Source: a virus. From it: a stretch of 36,383 nt of DNA. Below, in pieces: positions 1 through 36,179 of the stretch (position 1 is the stretch's first letter; each line of letters begins with the position of its first letter). Below the pieces are notes generated by a model that did no database searches, had not been told where the DNA came from, and saw nothing but the letters and a program-made list of their open reading frames with translations. The stretch spans positions 1 through 36,383 of the IMG/VR virus record IMGVR_UViG_3300021197_000620, one strand, 5' to 3'. The position numbers and the translations under genes are program-made.

Positions 1-120
1 GTATGCTTGAAAACATCTATTCCTAGGAATGATATTCAGGGTTATCTCGCTGGGAGAAAAACTATAACCACAGACTTTGTGGATAGAATCAACCAAATAG
101 GAGAAGACAATGGCAGATAA
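1..120 (+). CDS. C-terminal fragment of a small phage protein (cut by window edge)
   Basis: The first reading frame is open from base 1 to a TAA at 118-120 and encodes 39 residues ending in a polar, charged tail (…FVDRINQIGEDNGR). No start codon with a ribosome site is inside the window, so this is the 3' end of a gene whose beginning lies outside. It overlaps the ATG of the next gene at 110 by 11 bases, as do many genes in this operon, and that supports its being real. It sits between portal and scaffold, a place where podoviruses usually carry one or two small head-morphogenesis proteins. Function unknown. Confidence 0.55.
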   Translation, partial: VCLKTSIPRNDIQGYLAGRKTITTDFVDRINQIGEDNGR

Positions 121-364
121 AGACAGTCAAATTAAAGAAGGACAAGATGCCGAAAGGTTACTTAAAGACCCTTTATTAATTAAATCATACGAAGTAATCC
201 AAAATGATATTTTTCAACAATGGATTAGAACAGAAATAGAAGAATCTGGTAAAAGAGAATCTTTATATTTTTCACTTCGAGGTGTACTTACAGCACAAAA
301 TGTACTTGTAAACACAATGGAAAATGGCAAGATAGTTGAAAACGAATTAAGGGGAGGTAAATAG
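110..364 (+). CDS. Small conserved-type phage protein upstream of scaffold
   Basis: An 84-residue soluble, mostly helical protein with no membrane segment. The ATG at 110 follows AGGAGAAG at 101-108, an extremely close ribosome site, and overlaps the end of the upstream frame. The N-terminal phrase EGQDAERLLKDPLL resembles small proteins that stand between portal and scaffold in other podoviruses (recalled similarity, not a search). It ends three bases before the scaffold ATG and is clearly co-transcribed with head genes. A structural or assembly role is inferred from position only. Confidence 0.7.
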   Translation: MADKDSQIKEGQDAERLLKDPLLIKSYEVIQNDIFQQWIRTEIEESGKRESLYFSLRGVLTAQNVLVNTMENGKIVENELRGGK

Positions 365-22257: not shown

Positions 22258-22467
22258 TTACCAATCGTACTTAGAATCGTGATATAAGCCCTTTTCAGGC
22301 TTTTTCTGTAATTTTCTAACCTTGACTTCAGATTCTTTAAAAGAAACTGTTTCTGGTAATCTTTCAGACTCAGCAATTACTTTCTTTATTGCATCTTTTT
22401 CATCTGTTGCTTTAGTGCAACCACTGAAGACGACTGTACAGCGATACAAATAGTAATTCTGTTTCAT
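22258..22467 (-). CDS. Small DpnD/PcfM-style protein
   Basis: A 69-residue charged protein with a strand (YLYRCTVVFSGC), then TDEKDAIKKVIAESE, a strand-helix layout also seen in two other small genes here (27848 and 31531) and in the DpnD/PcfM-like family. The C-terminus is basic (VRKLQKKPEKG). It is the last gene of the leftward operon and overlaps the Q-like gene by four bases (ATGA). Function unknown. Confidence 0.55.
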   Translation of the reverse strand: MKQNYYLYRCTVVFSGCTKATDEKDAIKKVIAESERLPETVSFKESEVKVRKLQKKPEKGLYHDSKYDW

Positions 22468-22973
22468 GTATCACCGATTTTTTCTAACGCAGATTGCTCT
22501 ACATCTATTAAATGATTCATTAATTCTTTATAATCTTTCTTAATCTTCATATACACTCCTTTTTTTAATCCCATAATAGCCGACCTTGAAAAGTCCGACC
22601 ACACAAATATCCCATTATGACAATGTAGACACTTATCTACACTATCGTTAAAAACAAGTTGCCCTGTACCATTACAAAAGAAACAAGTAGTATCAGTAAA
22701 TAATTCTATAACCCCTGTATAAGCTATTTTCTTAGCAACTTTTTCATCTTGTGTTTTGATAAAAGACTCAGCATAGGTAACTAAATCATATCTTGCTATC
22801 TCATCTTCTAAATACTTACTCATTAAAAGATTAAGTTCAACCTTATCAAGGTTAGCATAAGCTAGTATTGTAGATACTTCTTGAGGTGTTATAGTATCAT
22901 GCGACTTACCACTACCAATACTTCCCATATCTAATGACTTTGGTAATAAAACAGTTAGTAAATCCAATCTCAT
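22464..22973 (-). CDS. Q-like zinc-finger protein, antiterminator candidate
   Basis: The ATG at 22973 has GGAG eight bases upstream; the longer frame would need a TTG at 22985. In the 169-residue product, CFFCNGTG (Cys97, Cys100) and CLHC (Cys115, Cys118) form a DnaJ-like zinc knuckle, followed by FSRSAIMGLKKGVYMKIKKD and a helix with LMNHLIDVEQSAL. This finger plus downstream helix arrangement resembles phage 21/lambda Q-type antiterminators, which load RNA polymerase at the late promoter. It fits a phage with no RNA polymerase gene, but the family call is tentative. Confidence 0.5.
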   Translation of the reverse strand: MRLDLLTVLLPKSLDMGSIGSGKSHDTITPQEVSTILAYANLDKVELNLLMSKYLEDEIARYDLVTYAESFIKTQDEKVAKKIAYTGVIELFTDTTCFFCNGTGQLVFNDSVDKCLHCHNGIFVWSDFSRSAIMGLKKGVYMKIKKDYKELMNHLIDVEQSALEKIGDT

Positions 22974-23197
22974 TATTTTCTCCAAATTCGATACTGTAAA
23001 GGCTCTCCAGCAATTTTATGTTGTCTAAAAGATAAGGGTATTTTTTTCTCCCAAGCGTGATGTCTTAGTGCATCTACCACATAATAGTCATCTATCAAAA
23101 AACTCTGCCCAGGCTTCATCATATCTAATATATCATAATATTCCTTATATTTACCTCTACGTTTAATTGGTATATTGTCTTCTATCACTACTTTCAT
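22973..23197 (-). CDS. Small DUF7303-like protein
   Basis: The ATG at 23197 forms an ATGA with the upstream gene and has GGAGAAG before it; an in-frame ATG at 23209 is inside that gene. The 74-residue product shows VIEDNIPI near the start, a MMKPGQSFLID block, and SFRQHKIAGEPLQYRIWR at the end. The NIPI … G-SF … R … YRIWR pattern resembles a small phage family (DUF7303-like, recalled) and matches the 28166 gene. Function unknown. Confidence 0.6.
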   Translation of the reverse strand: MKVVIEDNIPIKRRGKYKEYYDILDMMKPGQSFLIDDYYVVDALRHHAWEKKIPLSFRQHKIAGEPLQYRIWRK

Positions 23198-23589
23198 GTT
23201 CTTCTCCATTGTATAAATTTATCAAATGCTATTTCTCTTTTATCAACATCTTTAATTGAAACCTTTTGCAGATGCTTGTGTAGGCTTAGTTTGGGATTTT
23301 TTGTTTTAATCGTTCCATCACCTACCGCCACCTCCAAAGCCTGTTTTAAATTACTTATCACATGATAATGGGGTGAAAAATTTTTAGTTAAGTTTTCCAT
23401 TTCTAAAGTATACTGGTTTTCCTTATCAGTAATTAGTTTAAATAATTTTATATCATTACGATAAAGGCATATTATGTCCACAGTAAAAGAGCTTTTATCA
23501 TTTTTAATTACTTTAACTCCCTCTGATTGTAAACCTTTTATAATTTTACCTAGTCTTATTCCCCATTCCCTTTTATAATCCCAACTCAT
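23194..23589 (-). CDS. Unknown protein of the leftward operon
   Basis: A 131-residue basic protein, mixed strand and helix, with no cysteine motif or membrane segment. It has a perfect GGAGG six bases... upstream (ribosome site GGAGGATTT before ATG) and four-base overlaps with both neighbours, so it is certainly translated within the operon. The C-terminal REIAFDKFIQWRRT is basic and aromatic. I do not recognise the family; position between a Ref-like nuclease and the DUF7303-like gene suggests DNA metabolism or regulation. Confidence 0.6.
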   Translation of the reverse strand: MSWDYKREWGIRLGKIIKGLQSEGVKVIKNDKSSFTVDIICLYRNDIKLFKLITDKENQYTLEMENLTKNFSPHYHVISNLKQALEVAVGDGTIKTKNPKLSLHKHLQKVSIKDVDKREIAFDKFIQWRRT

Positions 23590-23882
23590 AAATCCTCCTT
23601 GGCATTATTAACCTCTTCTAAATACATTTCTAGCAGCTCATTTTGAGTTCCATATTTTTCTTCCCAGACTCTATTTCCTAAATAATGTACACCTTGTGAG
23701 CCTTGATGATGATGGTGGCATAGAGGGATAAAATCTTCTGACTTCATTCCCATACCAGCACCTGTTACATGATGAATACAAGGCTCAGTATAAACCCCAT
23801 ATAAAATTTTGCACAAGATGCACCCGTACTCAACTGCTTCCGCATACCTTCTTCTCATTTCTTTATTTGGTTTCTTAGCCAT
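23586..23882 (-). CDS. Ref-like HNH endonuclease
   Basis: The 98-residue protein carries a zinc-bound HNH fold: CILC (Cys21, Cys24), CIHHVTGAGMGMKSED (Cys35, His37, His38), IPLCHHHHQG (Cys55, His57-59) and GVHYLG, followed by WEEKYGTQNELL. The CIHH…GMG…PLC..HH…G.H…G…YG motif order is that of P1 Ref-type RecA-dependent nucleases (PF16786-like) and related phage enzymes. It would cut DNA during recombination, in keeping with the ERF/exonuclease genes opposite. Confidence 0.8.
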   Translation of the reverse strand: MAKKPNKEMRRRYAEAVEYGCILCKILYGVYTEPCIHHVTGAGMGMKSEDFIPLCHHHHQGSQGVHYLGNRVWEEKYGTQNELLEMYLEEVNNAKEDL

Positions 23883-23884
23883 TG

Positions 23885-24274
23885 TTATTTATAATTCTCC
23901 ATGTTAAATATTTCGCTTATAGGTAATAATACTCCTGTAGATGTATTTTCATCTCCCCCAGGAATTATTTTATTTTTTAAATAATACTTCCTTGCTAGTT
24001 CTTTTGCTATTTTAATCGGTAAGGTTATAGTAAAACACAAGTCTTTTTCTTTATAAAAAGATACAACCCAATGGTCTGAATGAGTAGTAGAGATGCCACT
24101 TTTTTTACCCCTAGATTCAAACTCAATAAACATATTCCCTGTTTTTATCCACTTATCTCTTTCAGCTTTACATTCAGTTTTGCCTGAAGCTAAATCATGA
24201 ATTAACTCTCCATAAAATTTTTCAGACATCTCGCCAAAATCTAAATCATATCTAAAATCATTGTTGTGTTTCAT
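23885..24274 (-). CDS. PD-(D/E)XK-like nuclease candidate
   Basis: The 129-residue protein has Glu34-Cys-Lys36 followed by ERDKWIKTGNMFIEFESRGK and SGISTTHSDHWVVSF. The E-x-K…TGN-x-x-x-E…SGI..T..D.W pattern belongs to a common phage family in which E-x-K is the catalytic half of a PD-(D/E)XK nuclease fold (recalled). An N-terminal Asp (DLDFGEMSEKFY region) could supply the metal ligand. Its start has GGAG nine bases upstream and overlaps the zinc-ribbon gene by 17 bases. Possible resolvase-like role. Confidence 0.55.
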   Translation of the reverse strand: MKHNNDFRYDLDFGEMSEKFYGELIHDLASGKTECKAERDKWIKTGNMFIEFESRGKKSGISTTHSDHWVVSFYKEKDLCFTITLPIKIAKELARKYYLKNKIIPGGDENTSTGVLLPISEIFNMENYK

Positions 24275-24419
24275 TTTTTTTCTCCGTTGGATAATAAACT
24301 TCTACATAAGAACCACAATTAGGGCATGATAAATTTGTTACAATAGAATATTCCTCACTGTCTTCAACATCGTGGTCGCCACCCCAAATTAATTCAGTGT
24401 TACAGTGCCAACAGTTCAC
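24258..24419 (-). CDS. 53-residue zinc-ribbon protein
   Basis: A GTG at 24419, overlapping the upstream stop (GTGA), opens a 53-codon frame encoding MNCWHCNTELIWGGDHD…, with CWHC (Cys3, Cys6) and CPNC (Cys32, Cys35), a two-knuckle zinc ribbon, then VEVYYPTEKK. This short protein type is common in aquatic phages. TTAGG immediately precedes the start. It overlaps the next gene by 17 bases. It likely binds nucleic acid or a protein partner; function unknown. Confidence 0.8.
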   Translation of the reverse strand: MNCWHCNTELIWGGDHDVEDSEEYSIVTNLSCPNCGSYVEVYYPTEKKNETQQ

Positions 24420-24769
24420 CCTAATTCTCCAGTTAGTTTCATTTCACCTCTGATGTTAGCTGACTTAGTTCTAAACAAATTACAAGATTCTTGTATTGTA
24501 CTTATTTCATGCCTTAATTTGAGATACTTTCTTTTCTCGGCCCTAACTAAGTCGATGTATTTAACTACATCTTTATGCACTTCTGCCATAGCTTCTCTAT
24601 CTTTAACAGTTAAACCTTTGTCTTTAGTTTCTAAAAATACAGTAGCTTTAGTAACTTTCATCATTGATTCATAGTATTGATAGCTAGACTCAGCATCCGC
24701 TAACTCAGCGCCCTTCTCTCTCCAATTTATAAGAGCCTTTTCAAGCTCAACATCTCCTAATCTAATCAC
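24416..24769 (-). CDS. Helical protein of the replication operon
   Basis: The 117-residue product is almost all charged helix (LADAESSYQYYESMMKVTKA; VVKYIDLVRAEKRKYLKLRH), a form found in a small phage family encoded among recombination and replication genes. It begins with GTG at 24769 inside the upstream gene, behind GGAGGG at about ten bases. No catalytic residues were identified. It may bridge or bind DNA-processing proteins. Confidence 0.6.
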   Translation of the reverse strand: MIRLGDVELEKALINWREKGAELADAESSYQYYESMMKVTKATVFLETKDKGLTVKDREAMAEVHKDVVKYIDLVRAEKRKYLKLRHEISTIQESCNLFRTKSANIRGEMKLTGELG

Positions 24770-25040
24770 GCTCTACATCCCTCCACTTTGTTTTATCTCT
24801 CTCGCAAACTAAAAATAAACTTTCAGTAAATTGAGCTTCCATAATTTCATCTTCCTCGTTTATTTTAAAATTAGAAGGAAAATACACCCCACCACGCTGT
24901 ATTTTTTTATATTCACAGCTACCTGGGTCAGTACATTCATCTACAAGCCAGTACAAATCACCTTTAACTGTATTATCGTAGACAAAAATACCAACAGGCT
25001 CTTTATCCTCTTTTATTCTTACTATTACTGCTTCTATCAT
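24762..25040 (-). CDS. Unknown acidic protein
   Basis: A 92-residue acidic, beta-rich protein with aromatic-containing strands (VGIFVYDN, GDLYWLVDECTDPGSCEY) and two close cysteines. It has GGAG eight bases before the ATG and overlaps its neighbours by four and eight bases. I do not recognise it. Position in the leftward operon suggests an early accessory role. Confidence 0.6.
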   Translation of the reverse strand: MIEAVIVRIKEDKEPVGIFVYDNTVKGDLYWLVDECTDPGSCEYKKIQRGGVYFPSNFKINEEDEIMEAQFTESLFLVCERDKTKWRDVERD

Positions 25041-25498
25041 TTCTTAACTCCTATTAGTTTAGTTTTTAGTTTATTGGGAAGTTCGGCAAAAGTTTCCTGT
25101 GATTCTTCGGCCATATATAGCTCAACAAACAAGTCTTCTTTTTTCTTTGTTACATATTCAGGTAGCTTGTGCATTTCTCTACCACCCATTTGGCTATATA
25201 TTTTCAAAGCCCTTTTATCATCAACTTCTCTGTGCTTAAAAAAATCATTAAATATTGACCTTATAGAAACTTCAGTGTTCTTCAATGACTTAGTTATATG
25301 GCAGACTTGCGGTTTCCACTCGCCATCTTTACTCTCGCAATGTAATACGAAAGCGGCCATACAATCATCTAATGAAAATTTCTGAAGACTAAGCCAAAAC
25401 ATACCTTTTTGTACATCATTCAAAGGTTGTTGCCTTGGGTATTGTTTTTCTATAACATCAATAAAAGCGCCAAATTCTTTATTATCCATATCATTCAT
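25037..25498 (-). CDS. Replicative helicase loader-like candidate
   Basis: The 153-residue protein is the first gene of the leftward operon. Its first half has the pattern seen in phage helicase-loader/inhibitor domains (G39P-like): MFWLSLQKFSLDDCMAAFVL, then HCESKDGEWKPQVCHITKSL. The rest is charged and helical. Such a protein would bring the host replicative helicase to an origin, a fit for a phage with DnaA boxes but no helicase of its own. No ribosome site precedes the ATG at 25498, so a start at 25489 is possible. Family call is tentative. Confidence 0.4.
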   Translation of the reverse strand: MNDMDNKEFGAFIDVIEKQYPRQQPLNDVQKGMFWLSLQKFSLDDCMAAFVLHCESKDGEWKPQVCHITKSLKNTEVSIRSIFNDFFKHREVDDKRALKIYSQMGGREMHKLPEYVTKKKEDLFVELYMAEESQETFAELPNKLKTKLIGVKK

Positions 25499-25608: not shown

Positions 25609-26133
25609 ATGAATAAACTTAAAATAGCAATGAACGAGTTTCAAAAACTTGCTGTTCATGCAACAAAGGGTGGAACTAATCCACATTTTAAATCAACTTA
25701 TTCTTCATTGGAAGATGTAATAGCTGCGTTAGAACCCGCTGCTCAACTAGGTCTAGTATACACACAAAGTATCGGATTTAGTGAAAGCCACACCTGGGTT
25801 AAAACAACTATTAGTCATATTGAAGATGAAGCAACTATAGAGTCTACTGTTCCAGTAATTGTTAGAGATGCAACTTCGGCCCAAGCACTTGGCGCAGGAA
25901 TTACATACGCAAAAAGATATGGATTACAGTCTTTATTTGCATTGCCTTCTTATGATGATGATGGAAATGCCGCAGAAAAAGCTCCTGAAGTTAAAGTTAC
26001 TGGGAATGTTAAAAAAATAGCAGACTCAAAAGATAAAACTGTAGCTGTTGAAGAACAATTAAAATCTGGAGGTATAAAAGATGGACAAACCAATGAAATT
26101 GCACTCGGAAAAGCATTACAACCTAAGAAGTAG
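25609..26133 (+). CDS. erf: ERF-family single-strand annealing protein
   Basis: The 174-residue protein has the ERF core: MNEFQKLAVHATKGGTNPHF, KSTYSSLEDVIAALEPAA, and later SAQALGAGITYAKRYGLQSL followed by the DDDGN acidic site. ERF proteins form rings that anneal complementary DNA strands and promote phage recombination and genome circularisation. The C-terminal 40 residues are polar and likely flexible. TGAGGAAA precedes the ATG. It overlaps the exonuclease gene by 53 bases, giving a classic annealase-exonuclease pair. Confidence 0.9.
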   Translation: MNKLKIAMNEFQKLAVHATKGGTNPHFKSTYSSLEDVIAALEPAAQLGLVYTQSIGFSESHTWVKTTISHIEDEATIESTVPVIVRDATSAQALGAGITYAKRYGLQSLFALPSYDDDGNAAEKAPEVKVTGNVKKIADSKDKTVAVEEQLKSGGIKDGQTNEIALGKALQPKK

Positions 26134-26767
26134 TGCCTTTAAAGACTATGCTTTTGGTTTGAAATATAAATCTGCTGGGCAGTTCTATATGTCGCCAACT
26201 GAAAGACAAAGAAGATTAGAGCATGACCTTAATGGCACGAATCCAGAAATGCCAGAACGGGCCTTACCCTATATCGAGTACGGAAATGAGCATGAAATGA
26301 GCGGTATAGCTAAATACATCTTAGTTAGCAAAAAGATGTGTAAAGACTATGGTGATAATCAGCAGAATTATGTAATTCAAGACTGGTTGAATCTAAAAGA
26401 AGATGTTGTGGTAGACATATCTACAACTCCCGATGGCTTATCAATGGATGATAGCCGAATTATTGAGGTAAAATGCTCTAAAATGGGCCAAGGGTTATAT
26501 CCTGAGTTCCCAAAACAGTATTTACCTCAAATTGCAGGTCAAATGATGATATTAAACATGCTTGGGATACCTGTAAAAAGTGTAGACCTAGTTAATTGGA
26601 ATCCTACCGAGTCTAAAATATGGAGATTTGAAAGGGATGGAGATTATGAGCAATATCTGATTGACAACCTTGAACATTATTCATTGGCCCTTCTCGGGAA
26701 ACACGAGCTTGGTAAACCAGTGAAGTATGAAAAAGAGATAAAAACTAACTTAATATACGGAGAATAA
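26081..26767 (+). CDS. YqaJ/lambda-exonuclease-type 5'-3' exonuclease
   Basis: The 228-residue protein shows the PD-(D/E)XK exonuclease set: YGNEHE (Glu70, Glu72), TTPDGL (Asp118), IIEVKCS (Glu129, Lys131) and YLPQIAGQM (Gln150, Gln154). It would resect double-stranded ends to make strands for the ERF annealase. The ATG at 26081 follows TGGAGG by about nine bases; a second ATG at 26093 is possible. Overlap with erf indicates coupled synthesis. Confidence 0.9.
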   Translation: MDKPMKLHSEKHYNLRSSAFKDYAFGLKYKSAGQFYMSPTERQRRLEHDLNGTNPEMPERALPYIEYGNEHEMSGIAKYILVSKKMCKDYGDNQQNYVIQDWLNLKEDVVVDISTTPDGLSMDDSRIIEVKCSKMGQGLYPEFPKQYLPQIAGQMMILNMLGIPVKSVDLVNWNPTESKIWRFERDGDYEQYLIDNLEHYSLALLGKHELGKPVKYEKEIKTNLIYGE

Positions 26768-27702: not shown

Positions 27703-27721
27703 TATTAGTACATTCTAATAT
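27703..27721 (+). repeat. Dyad repeat copy 1 (TATTAG-N6-CTAATAT)
   Basis: TATTAG at 27703-27708, spacer TACATT, and CTAATAT at 27715-27721. It stands about 30 bases before the parS-like site and 66 bases before a promoter -35 box. A second CTAATAT half follows directly at 27723-27729. Confidence 0.8.
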
Positions 27722-29088: not shown

Positions 29089-29841
29089 GTGAAAAACAAA
29101 AGTACAATAATATACAAAGGCCCATCTTTAATAGATGGGAAACCAATAATCGTTATATATCAACCGCAAGGCAAAAACCCAAAAATCGGGGAAATGGCCC
29201 AAACGTGGATATTAAGAGAAGATATCGACCCTATAACAGCAAATCGAATAGGTGAAGACTATTCTATATGCGGGAATTGTACGCATAAGGGAATCACAGA
29301 CCCGCAAAAGAAAAAAGGTATGGCTTCCAATAGGTCATGTTATGTAAATCCAATGCCTATACTAGCCGTTTATAAGTCTTATAAAAAAGGAAATTATATA
29401 GAAGGCTATGATATAGGGAATAACCTTTATTCCCTGGCTATGCTGGGTTCGGGTCAAAATATCCGCCTAGGCTCTTATGGTGACCCGGCAGCGGTACCCG
29501 CTAGAATATGGGAAGGGTTATTAAGATTATCAAAATCTCATACAGGATATACGCATCAAGCGGGAATAAAAACATCATCATATGATTATATTAAAAATAT
29601 TTTGATGACCTCATGCGATACACTAGCACAAGCAAAGGCCGCATGGAAAAAAGGCCTAAGAACATTCAGAACCATTACAAACCTATCACAGATAACAAGT
29701 AATGAAAAACAATGTATGGCCACATTAGAGGGAAGCAAAACCACATGTTCAAAATGTAATAAATGTAACGGGGATAGTGATTTTAAATCTATTGCTATCG
29801 TAGTACATGGCAATGGCGCTAAATATGCAGGGGGTTATTAA
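29089..29841 (+). CDS. DUF7227-like cysteine-containing protein
   Basis: A GTG at 29089 has GAGGAG eight bases upstream. The 250-residue product shows conserved blocks of a phage and plasmid family (DUF7227-like, recalled): SICGNCTHKG (Cys61, Cys64), SCYVNP (Cys84), RLGSYGDPAAVP (126-137), HTGYTH (151-156), LRTFRTI (190-196) and CSKCNKC (220-226). The many cysteines and histidines point to bound metal. The function of the family is not known. It is the last large gene before the repeat-rich noncoding region, so it is a candidate for binding that DNA, without direct proof. Confidence 0.75.
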   Translation: MKNKSTIIYKGPSLIDGKPIIVIYQPQGKNPKIGEMAQTWILREDIDPITANRIGEDYSICGNCTHKGITDPQKKKGMASNRSCYVNPMPILAVYKSYKKGNYIEGYDIGNNLYSLAMLGSGQNIRLGSYGDPAAVPARIWEGLLRLSKSHTGYTHQAGIKTSSYDYIKNILMTSCDTLAQAKAAWKKGLRTFRTITNLSQITSNEKQCMATLEGSKTTCSKCNKCNGDSDFKSIAIVVHGNGAKYAGGY

Positions 29842-29907
29842 TTGATTATTGAAGCCGCTCAGATACTAATAACATTACTAATTATTATGTTTTTTATAAC
29901 GGGATAA
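29842..29907 (+). CDS. Possible 21-residue membrane peptide
   Basis: A TTG at 29842, one base after the preceding stop and seven after a GGGGG tract, opens a 21-codon frame with a fully hydrophobic product (IIEAAQILITLLIIMFFITG). It resembles in style the better-supported 35-residue peptide at 31350. Given the length and A+T-rich DNA this may be chance. Confidence 0.25.
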   Translation: MIIEAAQILITLLIIMFFITG

Positions 29908-29920
29908 TTAGTTAAAATGA

Positions 29921-29947
29921 AGCCTTGATTTATCAGGGCTTTTTATT
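29921..29947 (+). terminator. Rho-independent terminator
   Basis: AGCCTTGA at 29921-29928 pairs with TCAGGGCT at 29933-29940 (one G-T wobble) over the loop TTTA, followed by TTTTATTA. It closes the small-gene operon that starts at 27848. Confidence 0.8.
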
Positions 29948-30729
29948 ATCAATCTATATTAGAATATCCTAATATACTTATACAGGTCTAATGAAACCAG
30001 AAGCGCCAGAAAAGCCCTAGTGAGTGTTTATACATAAGGTTATAAGACTGATATAACCATTATACAAGCCTTTTAAGATACTAGACTATGATAGAGGGGT
30101 ATTTTGAAAGAGGTTCATAACCACACACACACACGCCCTATAACGCCTAATAAGTATATAAGCAACTACTAATATGGCCTTATTTCTACATTAGAGAATG
30201 CTAATATTTGCGTTATGGCCTGTTTATTGGATTAATGGCTTATCTATAACAAAGAAAATAAAGACTTTAATATGATAGGGATTAGAGCCTTAGAGAGCAA
30301 AACCAGTATAAAAATAAAACTTGACTTTTATATAATAATATGTTAGCGTTTAAATATTAGCATATTAGAATATAAGCAAATACTAATATGCCTTCCATCA
30401 GTATATAAGGATATACTAATATTCCCTTTCCATCAGTATATTAGCAAGTACTAATATTCCCTTCCCATTCATAAGAATAGAAGCAGATACTAATATTCCA
30501 GGGAAACAATATAAGAAAACTCTAATATACTAATACTCTAATATTAGTATTTGGTAATATTCTAATATGCTAATGCGATTTTTCATTCGCGCAGGGGCGG
30601 ATTATCCGATAAAGTTTATCCCGACAGCCTTAGCCTAGTAGTTTATTAAATATTTAAACATACTTTATTATATGAAATTTAATAGTAATAGTCAATATAA
30701 ATAATTATATTTATTTTAATAAATATTTG
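29948..30729. other. Repeat-rich noncoding region
   Basis: No credible gene is seen in these roughly 780 bases. The DNA is very A+T rich, carries eight copies of the TATWAG-N6-CTAATAT dyad, a short CA run (30121-30134), and near 30590-30625 a G+C patch with GCGCAGGGGCGG and a weak hairpin. The region ends at the promoter of the 30802 gene. It may serve as a regulatory, partition or secondary replication site. Confidence 0.6.
29957..30528 (+). repeat. Array of eight TATWAG-N6-CTAATAT dyads (copies 2-9)
   Basis: Copies lie at 29957-29975, 30157-30175, 30189-30207, 30371-30389, 30404-30422, 30439-30457, 30478-30496 and 30510-30528. Each has a left half TATTAG, TATAAG or a one-base variant (CATTAG, TAGAAG), exactly six spacer bases, and a perfect CTAATAT. 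Copies 5-9 are spaced 33, 35, 39 and 32 bases apart. Extra CTAATAT halves occur at 30537-30580. The fixed spacer and variable spacer sequence are typical of binding sites for a dimeric protein. Confidence 0.85.
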
Positions 30730-30758
30730 TTGACATTCGTATAGGTATCACTCATACT
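30730..30758 (+). promoter_or_regulatory. Promoter A (TTGACATTC family)
   Basis: TTGACA at 30730-30735, a 17-base spacer and CATACT at 30753-30758. The stretch TTGACATTCGTATAGG is shared almost exactly with the promoters at 31460 and 31871, suggesting a common regulator as well as common polymerase contacts. Confidence 0.75.
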
Positions 30759-30766
30759 GTATACAT

Positions 30767-30804
30767 ACCTGGAATTAACCAGGTTTGAACGGAAGGAAAT
30801 TATG
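30767..30804 (+). promoter_or_regulatory. Repeated leader with hairpin, copy A
   Basis: ACCTGGAATTAACCAGGT forms a six-base-pair hairpin at 30767-30784, just after the expected transcription start, followed by TTTGAACGGAAGGAAATT and the ATG. The whole leader is repeated nearly base for base at 31497-31533 before another gene. Confidence 0.75.
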
Positions 30805-31496: not shown

Positions 31497-31533
31497 CCTG
31501 GAATTAACCAGGTTTGAACGGAAGAAAATTATG
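31497..31533 (+). promoter_or_regulatory. Repeated leader with hairpin, copy B
   Basis: CCTGG at 31497-31501 and CCAGG at 31508-31512 enclose AATTAA, followed by TTTGAACGGAAG and AAAATTATG. Compared with copy A at 30767 only one base differs between the hairpin and the ATG. Confidence 0.75.
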
Positions 31534-31794
31534 AGTAGAAAAGAAGATATAAAAAACTACATGAACCAATTTGGGGAAGGTAGTGCAGATATTATAGTAA
31601 ACCCTGGCGGGAGTACTATTACAATGCCAATCAAAACCTATAACATTGGAATTGACTTAACTATAGGCAAATATATTACAGTTGAAGCAACTACTGAAGA
31701 AGAAGCTATTGAGATAGCTACTAAAGAAGCAGAAGACCACAGTAATATAGGTAGTAGTAGGGGTTGGCACTTTGTAGGTGTAAAAGAGCAATAA
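31531..31794 (+). CDS. Small DpnD/PcfM-style protein under promoter B
   Basis: An 87-residue protein with a disordered start, a strand (YNIGIDLTIGKYITVEA), then TTEEEAIEIATKEAEDH and a closing SRGWHFVGVKEQ strand. The strand, TEEEA helix, strand order resembles the DpnD/PcfM-like fold and the 27848 and 22464 products. GGAAGAAA precedes the ATG. A strong terminator follows, so it is a one-gene transcription unit. Function unknown. Confidence 0.65.
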   Translation: MSRKEDIKNYMNQFGEGSADIIVNPGGSTITMPIKTYNIGIDLTIGKYITVEATTEEEAIEIATKEAEDHSNIGSSRGWHFVGVKEQ

Positions 31795-31814
31795 GCCCTA
31801 ACGGGCCGTTCAAG

Positions 31815-31847
31815 GCCTATCAGTAGCAATACTGGTAGGCTTTTTTC
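31815..31847 (+). terminator. Strong Rho-independent terminator
   Basis: GCCTATCAGTA at 31815-31825 pairs with TACTGGTAGGC at 31830-31840 (eleven pairs, one G-T wobble) over a GCAA tetraloop, followed by six T. It insulates the origin-like region from upstream transcription. Confidence 0.9.
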
Positions 31848-31870
31848 TTGCCTAAATATTAAAATAATCC

Positions 31871-31899
31871 TTGACATTCATATGGATATGTGTTAGGGT
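31871..31899 (+). promoter_or_regulatory. Promoter C-like element beside the DnaA boxes
   Basis: TTGACATTCATATGG at 31871-31885 copies the upstream part of promoters A and B, but the -10 position (TAGGGT at 31894-31899) is poor and no gene follows. Weak transcription into the origin, a primer RNA, or a regulator-binding site without promoter activity are all possible. Confidence 0.45.
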
Positions 31900-31946
31900 T
31901 TACCAGAGTTATCCACAGGTTTATCCACAAGTTATCCACATTAGTA

Positions 31947-31965
31947 TATTAGCATATTCTAATAT
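31947..31965 (+). repeat. Dyad repeat copy 10, between DnaA box groups 1 and 2
   Basis: TATTAG, spacer CATATT, CTAATAT. The left half is itself preceded by TTAGTA, as in copy 1. Confidence 0.85.
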
Positions 31966-32072
31966 TGCTCTTCTACCTCAAGGTTATCCACAGGGTTATC
32001 CACAGGTTATAGGTAGTTATCCACAGGTTGGGCATAGTTATCCACAGAGTTATCCACATTAGCATATTAGTA

Positions 32073-32091
32073 TATTAGCAAACTCTAATAT
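32073..32091 (+). repeat. Dyad repeat copy 11, between DnaA box groups 2 and 3
   Basis: TATTAG, spacer CAAACT, CTAATAT, preceded by two further TTAG-type half elements (32059-32070). Confidence 0.85.
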
Positions 32092-32094
32092 TCG

Positions 32095-32107
32095 GCCCCT
32101 GCGGGGC
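32095..32107 (+). other. G+C hairpin in the origin region
   Basis: GCCCC-TGC-GGGGC is a perfect five-pair hairpin; CGGCCTTCGGCC follows at 32115-32126 with a GGCC-TTC-GGCC core. Both sit in the gap between DnaA box groups 2 and 3 and stand out in A+T-rich DNA. Confidence 0.5.
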
Positions 32108-32182
32108 ATAAGACTCGGCCTTCGGCCTCGTTATCCACAATTTATCCACAGGCTAAAGAAACTTATCCACAGAGTTATCCAC

Positions 32183-32200
32183 AGGGGTGCGACCCCTTTT
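32183..32200 (+). terminator. Short hairpin with T-run after the last DnaA box
   Basis: AGGGGT at 32183-32188 pairs with ACCCCT at 32192-32197 over GCG, followed by TTT. It could stop transcripts starting at promoter C, or mark the edge of the DnaA box cluster. Confidence 0.45.
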
Positions 32201-32350
32201 GGAAGTACACATATATATATATCTCCCCCAAACTCACCGATGGGGAAAATACATTCTATATAAAAATAAACACACACCCTCTATAAGGCTCTATAAGAGT
32301 CTATGAGAGTATATAAGAATATTAGCATTTACTTATATATAAAATAAAGG
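32201..32350. other. A+T-rich stretch, possible DNA unwinding element
   Basis: The DNA between the DnaA boxes and the late promoter has no gene. It holds a TA run (about 32210-32221), a short C-rich patch and four degenerate direct 10-mers at 32281-32320: CTATAAGGCT, CTATAAGAGT, CTATGAGAGT, ATATAAGAAT. A+T-rich tandem repeats on one side of DnaA boxes are the usual form of a bacterial unwinding element. Confidence 0.55.
32320..32338 (+). repeat. Variant dyad copy 12 upstream of the late promoter
   Basis: TATTAG, spacer CATTTA, CTTATAT. The right half is the complement of the TATAAG form of the left half, so it fits the family. It ends 12 bases before the -35 box of the terL promoter, a position suited to control of that promoter. 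Confidence 0.6.
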
Positions 32351-32379
32351 TTGACATAGCTATAACTGATAACTATACT
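32351..32379 (+). promoter_or_regulatory. Late promoter before terL
   Basis: TTGACA at 32351-32356, a 17-base spacer and TATACT at 32374-32379, the best sigma70-type match in the window. Transcription would start near 32386 and could continue through all rightward head, tail and lysis genes. ATAGCTAT at 32356-32363 is a palindrome overlapping the -35 edge. Confidence 0.8.
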
Positions 32380-32380
32380 C

Positions 32381-32394
32381 GGTGGGTGGGTGGG
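32381..32394 (+). other. G-quadruplex-type motif at the late transcript start
   Basis: GGTGGGTGGGTGGG has four G-tracts separated by single T bases, starting one base after the -10 box and covering the expected +1. A TA run of about 16 bases follows. The motif is exceptional in such A+T-rich DNA. Confidence 0.6.
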
Positions 32395-32463
32395 TATATA
32401 TATATATATTATAAATAGTATTGCATGTTTAAAAAAAAAGAATATACTCGGAGGTGGAGTAAT

Positions 32464-33888
32464 ATGTCTACTGAACAAGAAAGAATACAAGAGATACTCG
32501 GCACCCTTAAAAAAAGAGGGGAGGAGAATAAACTCAATTACTACGAACCCTATAAATTCCAAGAAAGATTCCACTCGGCTGGAGCTGAAGCCAATCAAAG
32601 ATTATTGATGGCGGCAAACAGGGTCGGTAAGTCCTATGTAGGCGCAATGGAGATGGCAGCTCATTTGACAGGGTTGTATCCTAAATGGTGGAAGGGAAAA
32701 AAATTCGACAAGCCCATTCGGGCTTGGGTTTGTGGGGCCAGTAATGAAACCACAAGAGATATCTGTCAAAGAGAATTATTCGGGCAACCAGACAACCCCA
32801 GAGATAAAGGGAAGGGAAGTATCCCTAAACATCTCATTGGCGAAACCACAAGAAAACCAGGTGTGCCTAACGCACATTCCTCGGTACTTGTAAAACACAG
32901 CACAGGTGGGTGGTCTAGAGTTGCCTTTAAGGCTTACGAAATGGGTGCAGAAAAATTTATGGGAGAATCATTAGACCTTGTATGGTTAGATGAAGAACCG
33001 CCCCAAGATATCTACTCACAATGCATAACCCGTACCCTAGACAGGCGAGGATTGGTTTATTTAACCTTTACACCCGAATCAGGCATGACTGAGGTAGTTC
33101 AAAACTTTACATCTGATTTAAGGCCCTCACAGGCGCTTATAACAGCAGGTTGGGAAGATGCAGGTCATTTAACCGATGACATGAAAGAGCAAATTTTAGC
33201 AGCCCTACCTCAACACGAAAGAGAAATGCGGTCTAAAGGGATACCGATGATTGGTTCAGGGTTAGTCTTTCCAATTCAGGAAGATGTATTAGCGATAGAA
33301 CCTTTCACTATTCCCAAGCATTTTGCAAAGATTGCAGCAATAGATTTTGGATACGACCACCCTACAGCGGTTGTATGGTTAGCGTGGGATAGAGATGAAG
33401 ACATAGTTTATGTTTATGACTGTTATCGAATGGCTAAACAGATACCGAGTTATCACGGCTCACACATCAATGAACGAGAAGGCTCTGACTGGATTCCTAT
33501 AGTATGGCCACACGATGGATATCAACACGACAAAGGTTCTGGTGTTACCCTAGCCGAGCAATACAGAGATGCTTATGTCAATATGATGCCGTTTCACTTT
33601 GAAAATCCTCCAGCATTGGGGCAGAAAAAAGGTGGAAATAGCGTAGAAACAGGACTCATGGAAATGTTAGACCGAATGGAGTCTGGAAGATTTAAAGTAT
33701 TTAATACCCTTTATGACTGGTTTGAGGAGTATCGTATGTATCATCGTAAAGATGGAAAGCTAGTTAAACTTAAAGATGACTTAATGTCGGCTACACGATA
33801 TGCTACGTTAAGTCTAAGACATTCAACAACTAAAAATTCACGCTGGGAATCCAAGGGAAGATTAGGCCCTGATGTCGCAGTCGTATAG
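32464..33888 (+). CDS. terL: Terminase large subunit
   Basis: The ATG at 32464 has GGAGGTGGAG just upstream; a longer frame from 32425 would begin in the leader. The 474-residue protein has the packaging ATPase (Walker A ANRVGKSY at 51-58, Walker B LVWLDEEPP at about 172-180 with catalytic Glu) and the RNase-H-like nuclease (Asp294 in AIDFGYDHP, Asp351 in WPHDGY, Asp438/439 in LKDDL). It pumps DNA into the procapsid and cuts it. The portal follows after one small gene. It is the first gene of the late unit, far from terS. Confidence 0.95.
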   Translation: MSTEQERIQEILGTLKKRGEENKLNYYEPYKFQERFHSAGAEANQRLLMAANRVGKSYVGAMEMAAHLTGLYPKWWKGKKFDKPIRAWVCGASNETTRDICQRELFGQPDNPRDKGKGSIPKHLIGETTRKPGVPNAHSSVLVKHSTGGWSRVAFKAYEMGAEKFMGESLDLVWLDEEPPQDIYSQCITRTLDRRGLVYLTFTPESGMTEVVQNFTSDLRPSQALITAGWEDAGHLTDDMKEQILAALPQHEREMRSKGIPMIGSGLVFPIQEDVLAIEPFTIPKHFAKIAAIDFGYDHPTAVVWLAWDRDEDIVYVYDCYRMAKQIPSYHGSHINEREGSDWIPIVWPHDGYQHDKGSGVTLAEQYRDAYVNMMPFHFENPPALGQKKGGNSVETGLMEMLDRMESGRFKVFNTLYDWFEEYRMYHRKDGKLVKLKDDLMSATRYATLSLRHSTTKNSRWESKGRLGPDVAVV

Positions 33889-33897
33889 GAGAACATT

Positions 33898-34134
33898 ATG
33901 GCAAACAAAGAACTGTTAAAATTTCATAAAATGACTGAGAAAGAATTTAAGTCATTATCAAATGATAAAAAAAGAGATAAAATACAAAATTTTGTGTCTA
34001 CAATTAATAAACAAAAAAGAGAAGCTGTAACAAAAAATATTTCTGAAAAAGTAGAAGATGCAAGATTTCGTTTTAAAAACCCTGATAAAGCAAAACAAAG
34101 AAAAACATTAAAAGAAACAGGATATCTTAAATAA
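33898..34134 (+). CDS. Small basic protein between terL and portal
   Basis: A 78-residue, Lys-rich helical protein (MTEKEFKSLSNDKKRDKIQN, KQRKTLKETGYLK). TAGGAGAA precedes the ATG and its stop overlaps the portal start by one base. A packaging or head-assembly accessory role is inferred only from place. No family recognised. Confidence 0.65.
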   Translation: MANKELLKFHKMTEKEFKSLSNDKKRDKIQNFVSTINKQKREAVTKNISEKVEDARFRFKNPDKAKQRKTLKETGYLK

Positions 34135-36179
34135 TGGCTAAAAAAATGACCAAAGATGAACTAGCTGCACAACTAAGCAGTGAAATAGAGTCTGCTTCAG
34201 GAAACTTTAATACAGAATTATCTGCTCAAAGAGAGCAGTCTATGAAGTATTATCTTGGAGAGCCTTTTGGTAATGAGATAGAAGGTCGTTCTGAAATCGT
34301 TACAACTGATGTAAGAGATACTATTGAATACATTATGCCGAGTCTTATGCGTATCTTTACAACGCACAGCAATATAGCTGAGTTTGAACCCCAAGGCCCC
34401 GAAGATGTTAAGATGGCTAAACAAGCTACAGAATATGTTAACTATGTTTTTAACAAGCAAAACAATGGCTTTAAAGTCTTGTACGATGCCTTTAAAGATG
34501 CTTTGATAAGTAAGACTGGAGTTATTAAGCATTTCTGGGAAGAAAAAAAAGAGGTATCTCACGAAACATACGAGAACCTAACTGAGATTGAGTATCAATC
34601 AATCCTAGCAAATGATGACTTAGAAGTTATAGAACATACTGAGACTACTATTGAAAAAGCTCAGACAGATGATTATGGAACTCAAGTTTCAGAAGCAATT
34701 GTAGAACACGATGTTAAGGTTAAAAAAGTCACAATAGATGGGCAGGTAAGAGTTTTATCCGTTCCACCAGAAGAATTTTTAGTATCAAGAAGGGCTACTT
34801 CTGTTGAAGATGCTAGTTTTGTATGTCATAGAGTTAAAAAATCTGTTAGTGATTTAATCTTAGAAGGATATTCTAAAAGCATTGTAGAAGATTTACCTAC
34901 CTATACGCAGAATAACGCAGAATGGAACGAAGAAAGACAAGCTAGATTTAGCTTTGATGAAGATTCTGTTCCAGCAGAAGAAGGAAAAGGCCCATCAAGA
35001 AAAGTTTGGATTGAAGAATGTTATATACGAATTGACTATGATGGCGATGGTATAGCAGAATTAAGAAAGATTACAAAAGGTGGAAATGTTATTTTAGATA
35101 ACGAGGAAATAGATTCAATTCCTTTCTCAACTATCTGCCCTTTACCTATACCTCACAAGTTTCATGGCATGAGTATTGCCGATACAGTTTCAGATATACA
35201 ATTAATTAAATCTACTATTATGAGAAATCTTCTTGATAATATGTATTTAACTAACAACGCAAGATATGCAGTCTTAGCAGGACAAGTAGAACTTGATGAT
35301 TTATTATCTTCTAAGCCAGGTGGAATAGTAAGAATGAGAGCGCCAGGAGCTGTTACAGCTTTACCTACACCCCAAATACAACCTTATGCTTTCCAAATGG
35401 TTCAATACCTAGATGGTATTAGAGAAGAAAGAAGCGGTGTATCGAAAACCACACAAGGATTAAATCCTGATGTACTTAACTCACACGTTACTACAGGGGC
35501 TATATCAGCAGCGACAGAGTCCGCTATGCAGAGAGTTGAATTGATAGCTCGTATATTTGCAGAAACAGGTATAAAAGATTTATTTAGAAATATATACGCT
35601 TTAGTACAAAGATATGAAGATAGAAAAAAAATAGCTTATCTCAATGGCCAGTTCGTACCAATAGATGTTTCCAGATGGAAAGAAAAATTAAATTGTACTG
35701 TTAATGTGGGGATTGGTTCTGGTAGTCAACAAAGCAAGACTCAAACAATGGGTTCTATTATGCAAGTTATACAACAATTAGTTCAAAATGGTGGAATGGG
35801 TTCACTAGTTACCCCAGATAATATTTATAATGCTGTAAAAGAATTTATAGCACAATCAGGATATAAAAATGCAGACCAATTTATATCTAATCCGCAGTCA
35901 GCTCCTCCTAAAGGGCCGCCTGAACCTACAGTAGAAGAAAAAATTGCTAATCAAAAGGGACAGATAGAATTACAAAAATTAAAATTACAAGCTCAAGAAT
36001 TAGAAATTGATACACAGTTAAAATCACAAGAGTTGCAACTTAAAAAAGAAGAAGCATCTGTTGACCTTGCTTTAAAACAACAAGAACTTTTAATTAAAAA
36101 ATCTCAACTAGAACTTAATGAAGCAGAGTTGGCTTTAGAAGCAACTCAAAATAGACCTGTTGGAATAGGGCCAAGCTAA
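34134..36179 (+). CDS. Portal protein, P22-type
   Basis: The 681-residue protein forms the dodecameric ring at the packaging vertex. Recognisable parts are an N-terminal helical section (AQREQSMKYYLGEPFGNE), RSEIVTTDVRDTIEYIMP, a wing region with DYDGDGIAELRKIT (about 302-315), the stem/crown part with ERSGVSKTTQGLNPDVL and ISAATESAMQRVELIARIFA, and a long C-terminal coiled coil (about 600-670, Gln/Lys/Leu/Glu rich). Length and motifs match podovirus P22-like portals rather than the shorter HK97 type. Confidence 0.93.
   Translation: MAKKMTKDELAAQLSSEIESASGNFNTELSAQREQSMKYYLGEPFGNEIEGRSEIVTTDVRDTIEYIMPSLMRIFTTHSNIAEFEPQGPEDVKMAKQATEYVNYVFNKQNNGFKVLYDAFKDALISKTGVIKHFWEEKKEVSHETYENLTEIEYQSILANDDLEVIEHTETTIEKAQTDDYGTQVSEAIVEHDVKVKKVTIDGQVRVLSVPPEEFLVSRRATSVEDASFVCHRVKKSVSDLILEGYSKSIVEDLPTYTQNNAEWNEERQARFSFDEDSVPAEEGKGPSRKVWIEECYIRIDYDGDGIAELRKITKGGNVILDNEEIDSIPFSTICPLPIPHKFHGMSIADTVSDIQLIKSTIMRNLLDNMYLTNNARYAVLAGQVELDDLLSSKPGGIVRMRAPGAVTALPTPQIQPYAFQMVQYLDGIREERSGVSKTTQGLNPDVLNSHVTTGAISAATESAMQRVELIARIFAETGIKDLFRNIYALVQRYEDRKKIAYLNGQFVPIDVSRWKEKLNCTVNVGIGSGSQQSKTQTMGSIMQVIQQLVQNGGMGSLVTPDNIYNAVKEFIAQSGYKNADQFISNPQSAPPKGPPEPTVEEKIANQKGQIELQKLKLQAQELEIDTQLKSQELQLKKEEASVDLALKQQELLIKKSQLELNEAELALEATQNRPVGIGPS

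Follow-up and report, generated by a model that had tools for sequence, protein, structure and literature searches.

A phased array of DnaA boxes 5' of the terminase gene in an uncultured phage, a candidate host-DnaA-dependent origin

Why phages carry DnaA boxes is a question that has rarely been tested, and to our knowledge few phages have an origin that requires the host initiator DnaA. The question is raised here by a 36,383-base IMG/VR virus record from a marine phage, analysed over its whole length and called the window below, in which 12 exact copies of the DnaA box TTATCCACA lie on the plus strand within 275 bp (31909-32183). The copies are arranged as boxes 1-3 (31909-31940; starts 31909, 31921, and 31932, with gaps of 2-3 bp), boxes 4-8 (31984-32058; starts 31984, 31996, 32017, 32038, and 32050), and boxes 9-12 (32131-32183; starts 32131, 32142, 32163, and 32175), and no further exact copy is found on either strand of the window. 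Under a first-order Markov model, 275 bp would hold 0.0014 copies and each strand of the window 0.18; the density is far above this chance expectation, as in the DnaA-box clusters of oriC-type origins, which bears out the twelve perfect, co-oriented boxes reported in a preliminary description of this DNA.

The start-to-start spacings (12, 11, 52, 12, 21, 21, 12, 81, 11, 21, and 12 bp) are phased at 10.5 bp, with a resultant length R of 0.80 (P = 0.0007 against random non-overlapping placement). The earlier statement that the boxes are spaced near whole helical turns is correct with the sole exception of the 81-bp gap, which amounts to 7.7 turns. The sister phage L129, whose terminase is 97% identical, carries 13 exact boxes at the same position, and an alignment of this single sister pair, from which box conservation was measured, gives 99 matches and no mismatch in box bases versus 149 matches and 14 mismatches in linkers. 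One-base indels fall in the linkers, and one whole palindrome-hairpin-box module has been gained or lost; despite the indels, the phase in L129 has an R of 0.92, a value reached by none of 20,000 random placements. Because box bases stay constant while linkers diverge, the 9-mers are under selection, very probably as DnaA sites, and the alignment points to selection on phase as well, the pattern kept through indels being that expected if a protein binds cooperatively along one face of the helix. The gaps of 2-3 bp agree with those at which DnaA is reported to load cooperatively (PMC4451416). We consider it very probable, judging from the sites themselves, that host DnaA binds these boxes. That they serve a different phage or host protein, or reflect neutral tandem-repeat growth, is very improbable: this reading draws on the fact that DnaA binding is deduced from sequence, but it has to contend with an exact consensus match and flanks that are not homogenised, in addition to the unchanged box bases and the maintained phase.

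With respect to how common such arrays are, a scan of IMG/VR for three or more boxes within short gaps, in which all frequencies are lower bounds, returned at least 120 stretches, compared to 9 for a reversed control word. The densest other clusters among the matches listed hold 11, 9, 9, and 9 boxes. The window's 12 boxes are extreme, but phage DnaA clusters are not rare, contrary to what had been assumed at first. In the 56 of these loci that bear a terminase, the cluster lies 5' of the large terminase gene (TerL) in 55 and no more than 1.6 kb from it in 48, a terminase-proximal count that was reached in none of 2,000 random placements; when placement is confined to intergenic DNA, the count is 20 among 27 testable loci, compared to 8.5 expected. 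Terminases were found by iterated profile search, and PHROGs confirmed the assignment for a few representative members. Clustering them at 40% identity gives 11 groups including the window's, and the loci are not independent since one group accounts for 39 of them, with several separate groups nevertheless showing the cluster 5' of the terminase. The 9 loci found with the reversed word have no recognised terminase and hence are not usable as a positional control. DnaA arrays recur 5' of the terminase in uncultured phages belonging to several terminase groups, a position bias that is new here. The distance from cluster to TerL varies from 65 to 1460 bp, and the direction of the boxes is not conserved, pointing toward the terminase in 18 loci and away from it in 37.

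This strong bias argues for a role in cis rather than for a pure DnaA sink, the alternative that the preliminary description had named. Such a sink would titrate DnaA in a datA-like manner as phage copies grow, so that host initiation stops and replisome parts are freed while the phage origin lies elsewhere. All twelve sites are consensus sites and are therefore expected to have high affinity for both nucleotide forms of DnaA, and E. coli is known to titrate DnaA with datA-type clusters (PMC5835720). A sink should, however, be indifferent to position, and uniform orientation and helical phase exceed its strict need, although cooperativity could explain both; on balance, titration appears rather unlikely as the main role. 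The neighbourhood of the terminase also brings up a late switch, in which DnaA bound upstream of the terminase operon would control late transcription or packaging onset, the dilution of DnaA over phage copies acting as a copy-number gauge. The array is located between an intrinsic terminator that ends the early operon just to its left (31812-31850, plus strand) and a sigma70-type promoter that serves the terminase (late) operon (TTGACA-17-TATACT, 32351-32379, plus strand; 11 of 12 consensus matches); the promoter total in the array region is not above that of shuffled sequences. Clusters recur at this side of the terminase in unrelated phages, and in lambda the theta-to-sigma switch is reportedly under the control of host DnaA (PMC5499656). 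We nevertheless regard a late switch as unlikely, with the −35 box 168 bp from the last DnaA box and with TerL distance and box orientation so variable across loci. Given the position bias, this variability is more readily reconciled with an origin than with a promoter switch or a simple sink.

Boxes are present in only two of the TerL relatives scanned, L129 and L139, the latter (terminase 91% identical) with 3 at the window's position and 1 farther upstream, and no exact box was found in the sequence examined of G020, G016, G012, G004, and Pelagibacter phage Baldr. The boxes are thus dispensable in this phage group, and their number among close relatives (0, 4, 12, or 13) is of the kind expected for an accessory trait, which favours a sink. 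G020 and G016 are collinear with the window and carry the same replication-related gene set, yet have no exact boxes; the array is therefore not conserved in close relatives that share these genes, as an origin would be, and this counts against an origin. At the position of the array, the box-less L135 and L140 (each with a terminase 91% identical), L142, and the 37,155-base G020 have A+T-rich palindromes, and most of them also keep G+C hairpins and a CGACCCC...ATATATAT...CTCCC...GGGGAAA element in the same place. From this arrangement, the scaffold appears to predate the boxes, which would have been added to an existing non-coding junction between early and late operons. Box-less L135 has a well-formed promoter, TTGACA-17-TATAAT, and the window's equivalent (31871-31900) has a decayed −10 where the first boxes begin. 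The sequence GATC is absent from the window (about 95 expected) and from L129, L142, L244, G016, G020, and Vibrio phage Phriendly, and is near expectation in L139, L135, and Baldr, which suggests that its avoidance switches on and off among relatives with different host restriction or Dam backgrounds. As a correlate of SeqA escape it was rejected, since GATC is at normal frequency in L139, which has boxes, and missing from G020, which does not.

The A+T-rich decamers of the preliminary description are present within the array as two copies of a TATTAG-N6-CTAATA palindrome (31943-31966 and 32069-32092), but they are ruled out as a cluster-specific unwinding motif, because the palindrome is phage-wide (about twelve further copies in the window, at 27703, 29957, and some ten positions in 30150-30580) and occurs in box-less L135, L140, L142, and G020. 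Roughly ten of the copies lie in about 1 kb of non-coding DNA at 29841-30800, and similar copies precede TTGACA promoters or hairpins in relatives; these palindromes are likely the operator of some regulator, or else a candidate family-wide control or origin element. Searches joining the palindrome and the boxes returned only the same relatives and unrelated phages. Between boxes 8 and 9, two small G+C hairpins are predicted by folding (GCCCC-tgc-GGGGC and GGCC-ttc-GGCC, 32095-32127) and are conserved in L129. To the right of the array, alignment identifies a conserved, apparently ancestral non-coding element, GGGGTGCGACCCC-TTTT...ATATATATATAT...CTCCC...TGGGGAAA (32184-32245), which is present in relatives with or without boxes and is a candidate unwinding element, with an alternating-AT tract at 32211-32222. 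It is followed by a stretch of low duplex stability 3' of the last box (32246-32345), at the 99.4th percentile of 100-bp windows. All 12 boxes face this low-stability DNA with their 3' side, and in E. coli oriC, too, low-stability DNA lies on the 3' side of TTATCCACA. The stretch belongs to the top 0.6% for low stability, yet duplex stability is lower still at several other positions of the genome, the extreme being 30636-30735. An IHF site WATCAANNNNTTR was not found within 31500-32700, where the consensus used may not be that of the host; a host search by TerL in genome contigs gave no match. Third-position GC skew does not change sign across the array (0.029 left, 0.036 right), and GC skew, proposed earlier as a check, was set aside as an origin signal, being confounded by transcription. 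The steady skew, the less stable DNA elsewhere, and the failure to find an IHF site all count against an origin.

The gene content of the window bears on which machinery copies this phage. Besides the large terminase subunit (Terminase_6N/6C, 32461-33888, plus strand) and an SU10-type portal protein (34134-36179, plus strand; PF23899, E 5e-220), an Erf-type annealing protein (25609-26133) and a YqaJ/RecE-like exonuclease (26081-26767; both plus strand) are the only recognised DNA-metabolism enzymes other than nucleases, and homologues of a RecA-dependent nuclease and a metallophosphoesterase are also encoded. In relatives, the interval from the portal gene to an 84-aa gene (window 110-364) spans 750-1000 bases and contains only ORFs of about 50-75 aa, whereas the window has 314 bases of it, from which we infer a genome that is complete except for roughly 0.4-0.7 kb. 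No DnaB-type helicase, family A polymerase (PolA), or DnaA was detected in the window or in four relatives, while positive controls matched, and this agrees with the preliminary description; since the near-complete genome has none of these in recognisable form, the phage must be copied by host machinery. No phage initiator gene of the kind found with iteron or P1-type origins was recognised among the proteins scanned, where the product of 25037-25498 (minus strand) is weakly replication-like. This conserved 150-aa protein has weak, non-significant fold matches to a replisome organizer and to proteins of the G39P type; its assignment as a helicase loader was not upheld, with nothing convincing in Pfam and PDB and with BFVD fold matches that are suggestive at most. 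The minus-strand operon that it heads (22258-25498) resembles the P-to-Q region of lambda, with this possibly helicase-loader-like protein, a Ref/DUF968-type nuclease, and a zinc-motif protein that is possibly Q-like. Another protein (29089-29841, phrog_2554) shares 44% identity with proteins encoded close to the end of the records of Roseobacter phages CRP-118 and CRP-403, and its homologues adjoin dense DnaA clusters in the unrelated contigs L042, L078, and L127. It was rejected as a specific cluster partner, since further IMG/VR relatives and three isolate records were checked and carry no boxes.

Missing replication genes are not a general reason for phage clusters, because phages that encode a replisome carry them too, an observation that also counts against an origin. 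The DnaB_C cut-off is passed by 8, and the DNA_pol_A cut-off by 6, of 24 long contigs with clusters, and about a dozen loci have a T7-like primase-helicase at a distance of 2-6 kb from the cluster. Two Berlinvirus isolates, both T7-like and encoding their own polymerase and primase, have TTATCCACA boxes close to their termini: Shigella phage A7 (MK685668.1) has four near the terminus, with arrays at both record ends (22-135 and 39903-40016), and Escherichia phage P483 (KP090453.1) has five, at 37256-37358. Four to five boxes in phages with such enzymes are in keeping with a sink. They also fit an element of genome ends or DNA entry, in which boxes would mark a terminus, a pac region, or an entry stop, a role suggested in phages of the T5-like and T7-like kinds; the injection stop signal of T5 has been described with DnaA boxes (PMC13250531), and the array adjoins the terminase. 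In relatives, contig starts accumulate upstream of TerL at scattered positions and not at a single one, as expected of assembly breaks in variable DNA, so that a physical genome end at the array was rejected and a role of this kind is improbable.

Taken together, we tentatively interpret the array as a cis-acting platform for host DnaA at the early/late junction, through which the phage most likely draws host DnaA onto its own DNA, and as a DnaA-dependent or DnaA-assisted origin, or part of one (probability roughly 0.4). DnaA would occupy the twelve consensus sites, which share one orientation, follow each other at gaps of 2-3 bp within runs, and lie on one helix face, and would form an oligomer, with which both the short gaps and the low-stability 3' DNA agree (PMC4451416); the oligomer would then help to open the A+T-rich DNA on the 3' side (32211-32345), and host DnaB, together with the other components of the host replisome, would be handed to the phage DNA, so that replication would start at the array. 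The earlier view, which took direct use of host DnaA to be the simplest reading, is supported by selected, phased sites and by the low-stability DNA to their right, but its argument from missing genes is weakened by the box-less G020 and G016 with the same genes and by cluster-bearing phages with their own primase-helicase and polymerase. A broader reading, in which arrays 5' of the terminase are a general, repeatedly acquired control site of uncultured phages where replication mode and packaging onset are tied to viral DNA copy number by the host initiator, is about as unlikely as the late switch. The position rule makes origin, packaging-switch, and titration models separable, and the window's array, among the densest found, forms a natural series with sister phages that have 13, 4, and 0 boxes. 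If it is an origin, these 275 bp of phage DNA would act as a compact replicator driven by DnaA and possibly exempt from normal host control.

Compared to known systems, the array shares with the DnaA sites near ori-lambda and with P1 and iteron-plasmid origins the aid of host DnaA to a mobile replicon; those replicons have their own initiator (O, RepA) and one to few boxes, whereas no initiator was recognised among the phage proteins scanned. With the T5 injection stop signal and the Berlinvirus terminal regions it has in common several TTATCCACA copies near the packaging or terminal region of a lytic phage, although these phages have their own replication machinery and fewer boxes. Like datA-type loci, the array is a box cluster that could in principle hold many DnaA molecules, but datA depends on an IHF site between its boxes (PMC5835720), which was not found here under a consensus that may differ in the host, and the strict orientation and phase and the non-random position in phage genomes are further differences. 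Most bacteria have 3-8 high-affinity DnaA sites (PMC4451416), and the array departs from oriC in its twelve consensus boxes of one orientation, its place beside a terminase in a phage, its absence from sister phages, and its lack of GATC and of a recognised IHF site. What it shares with bacterial oriC of the E. coli, Thermus, and Streptomyces types are clustered boxes, gaps of 2-3 bp, low-stability DNA on the 3' side, and helical phasing.
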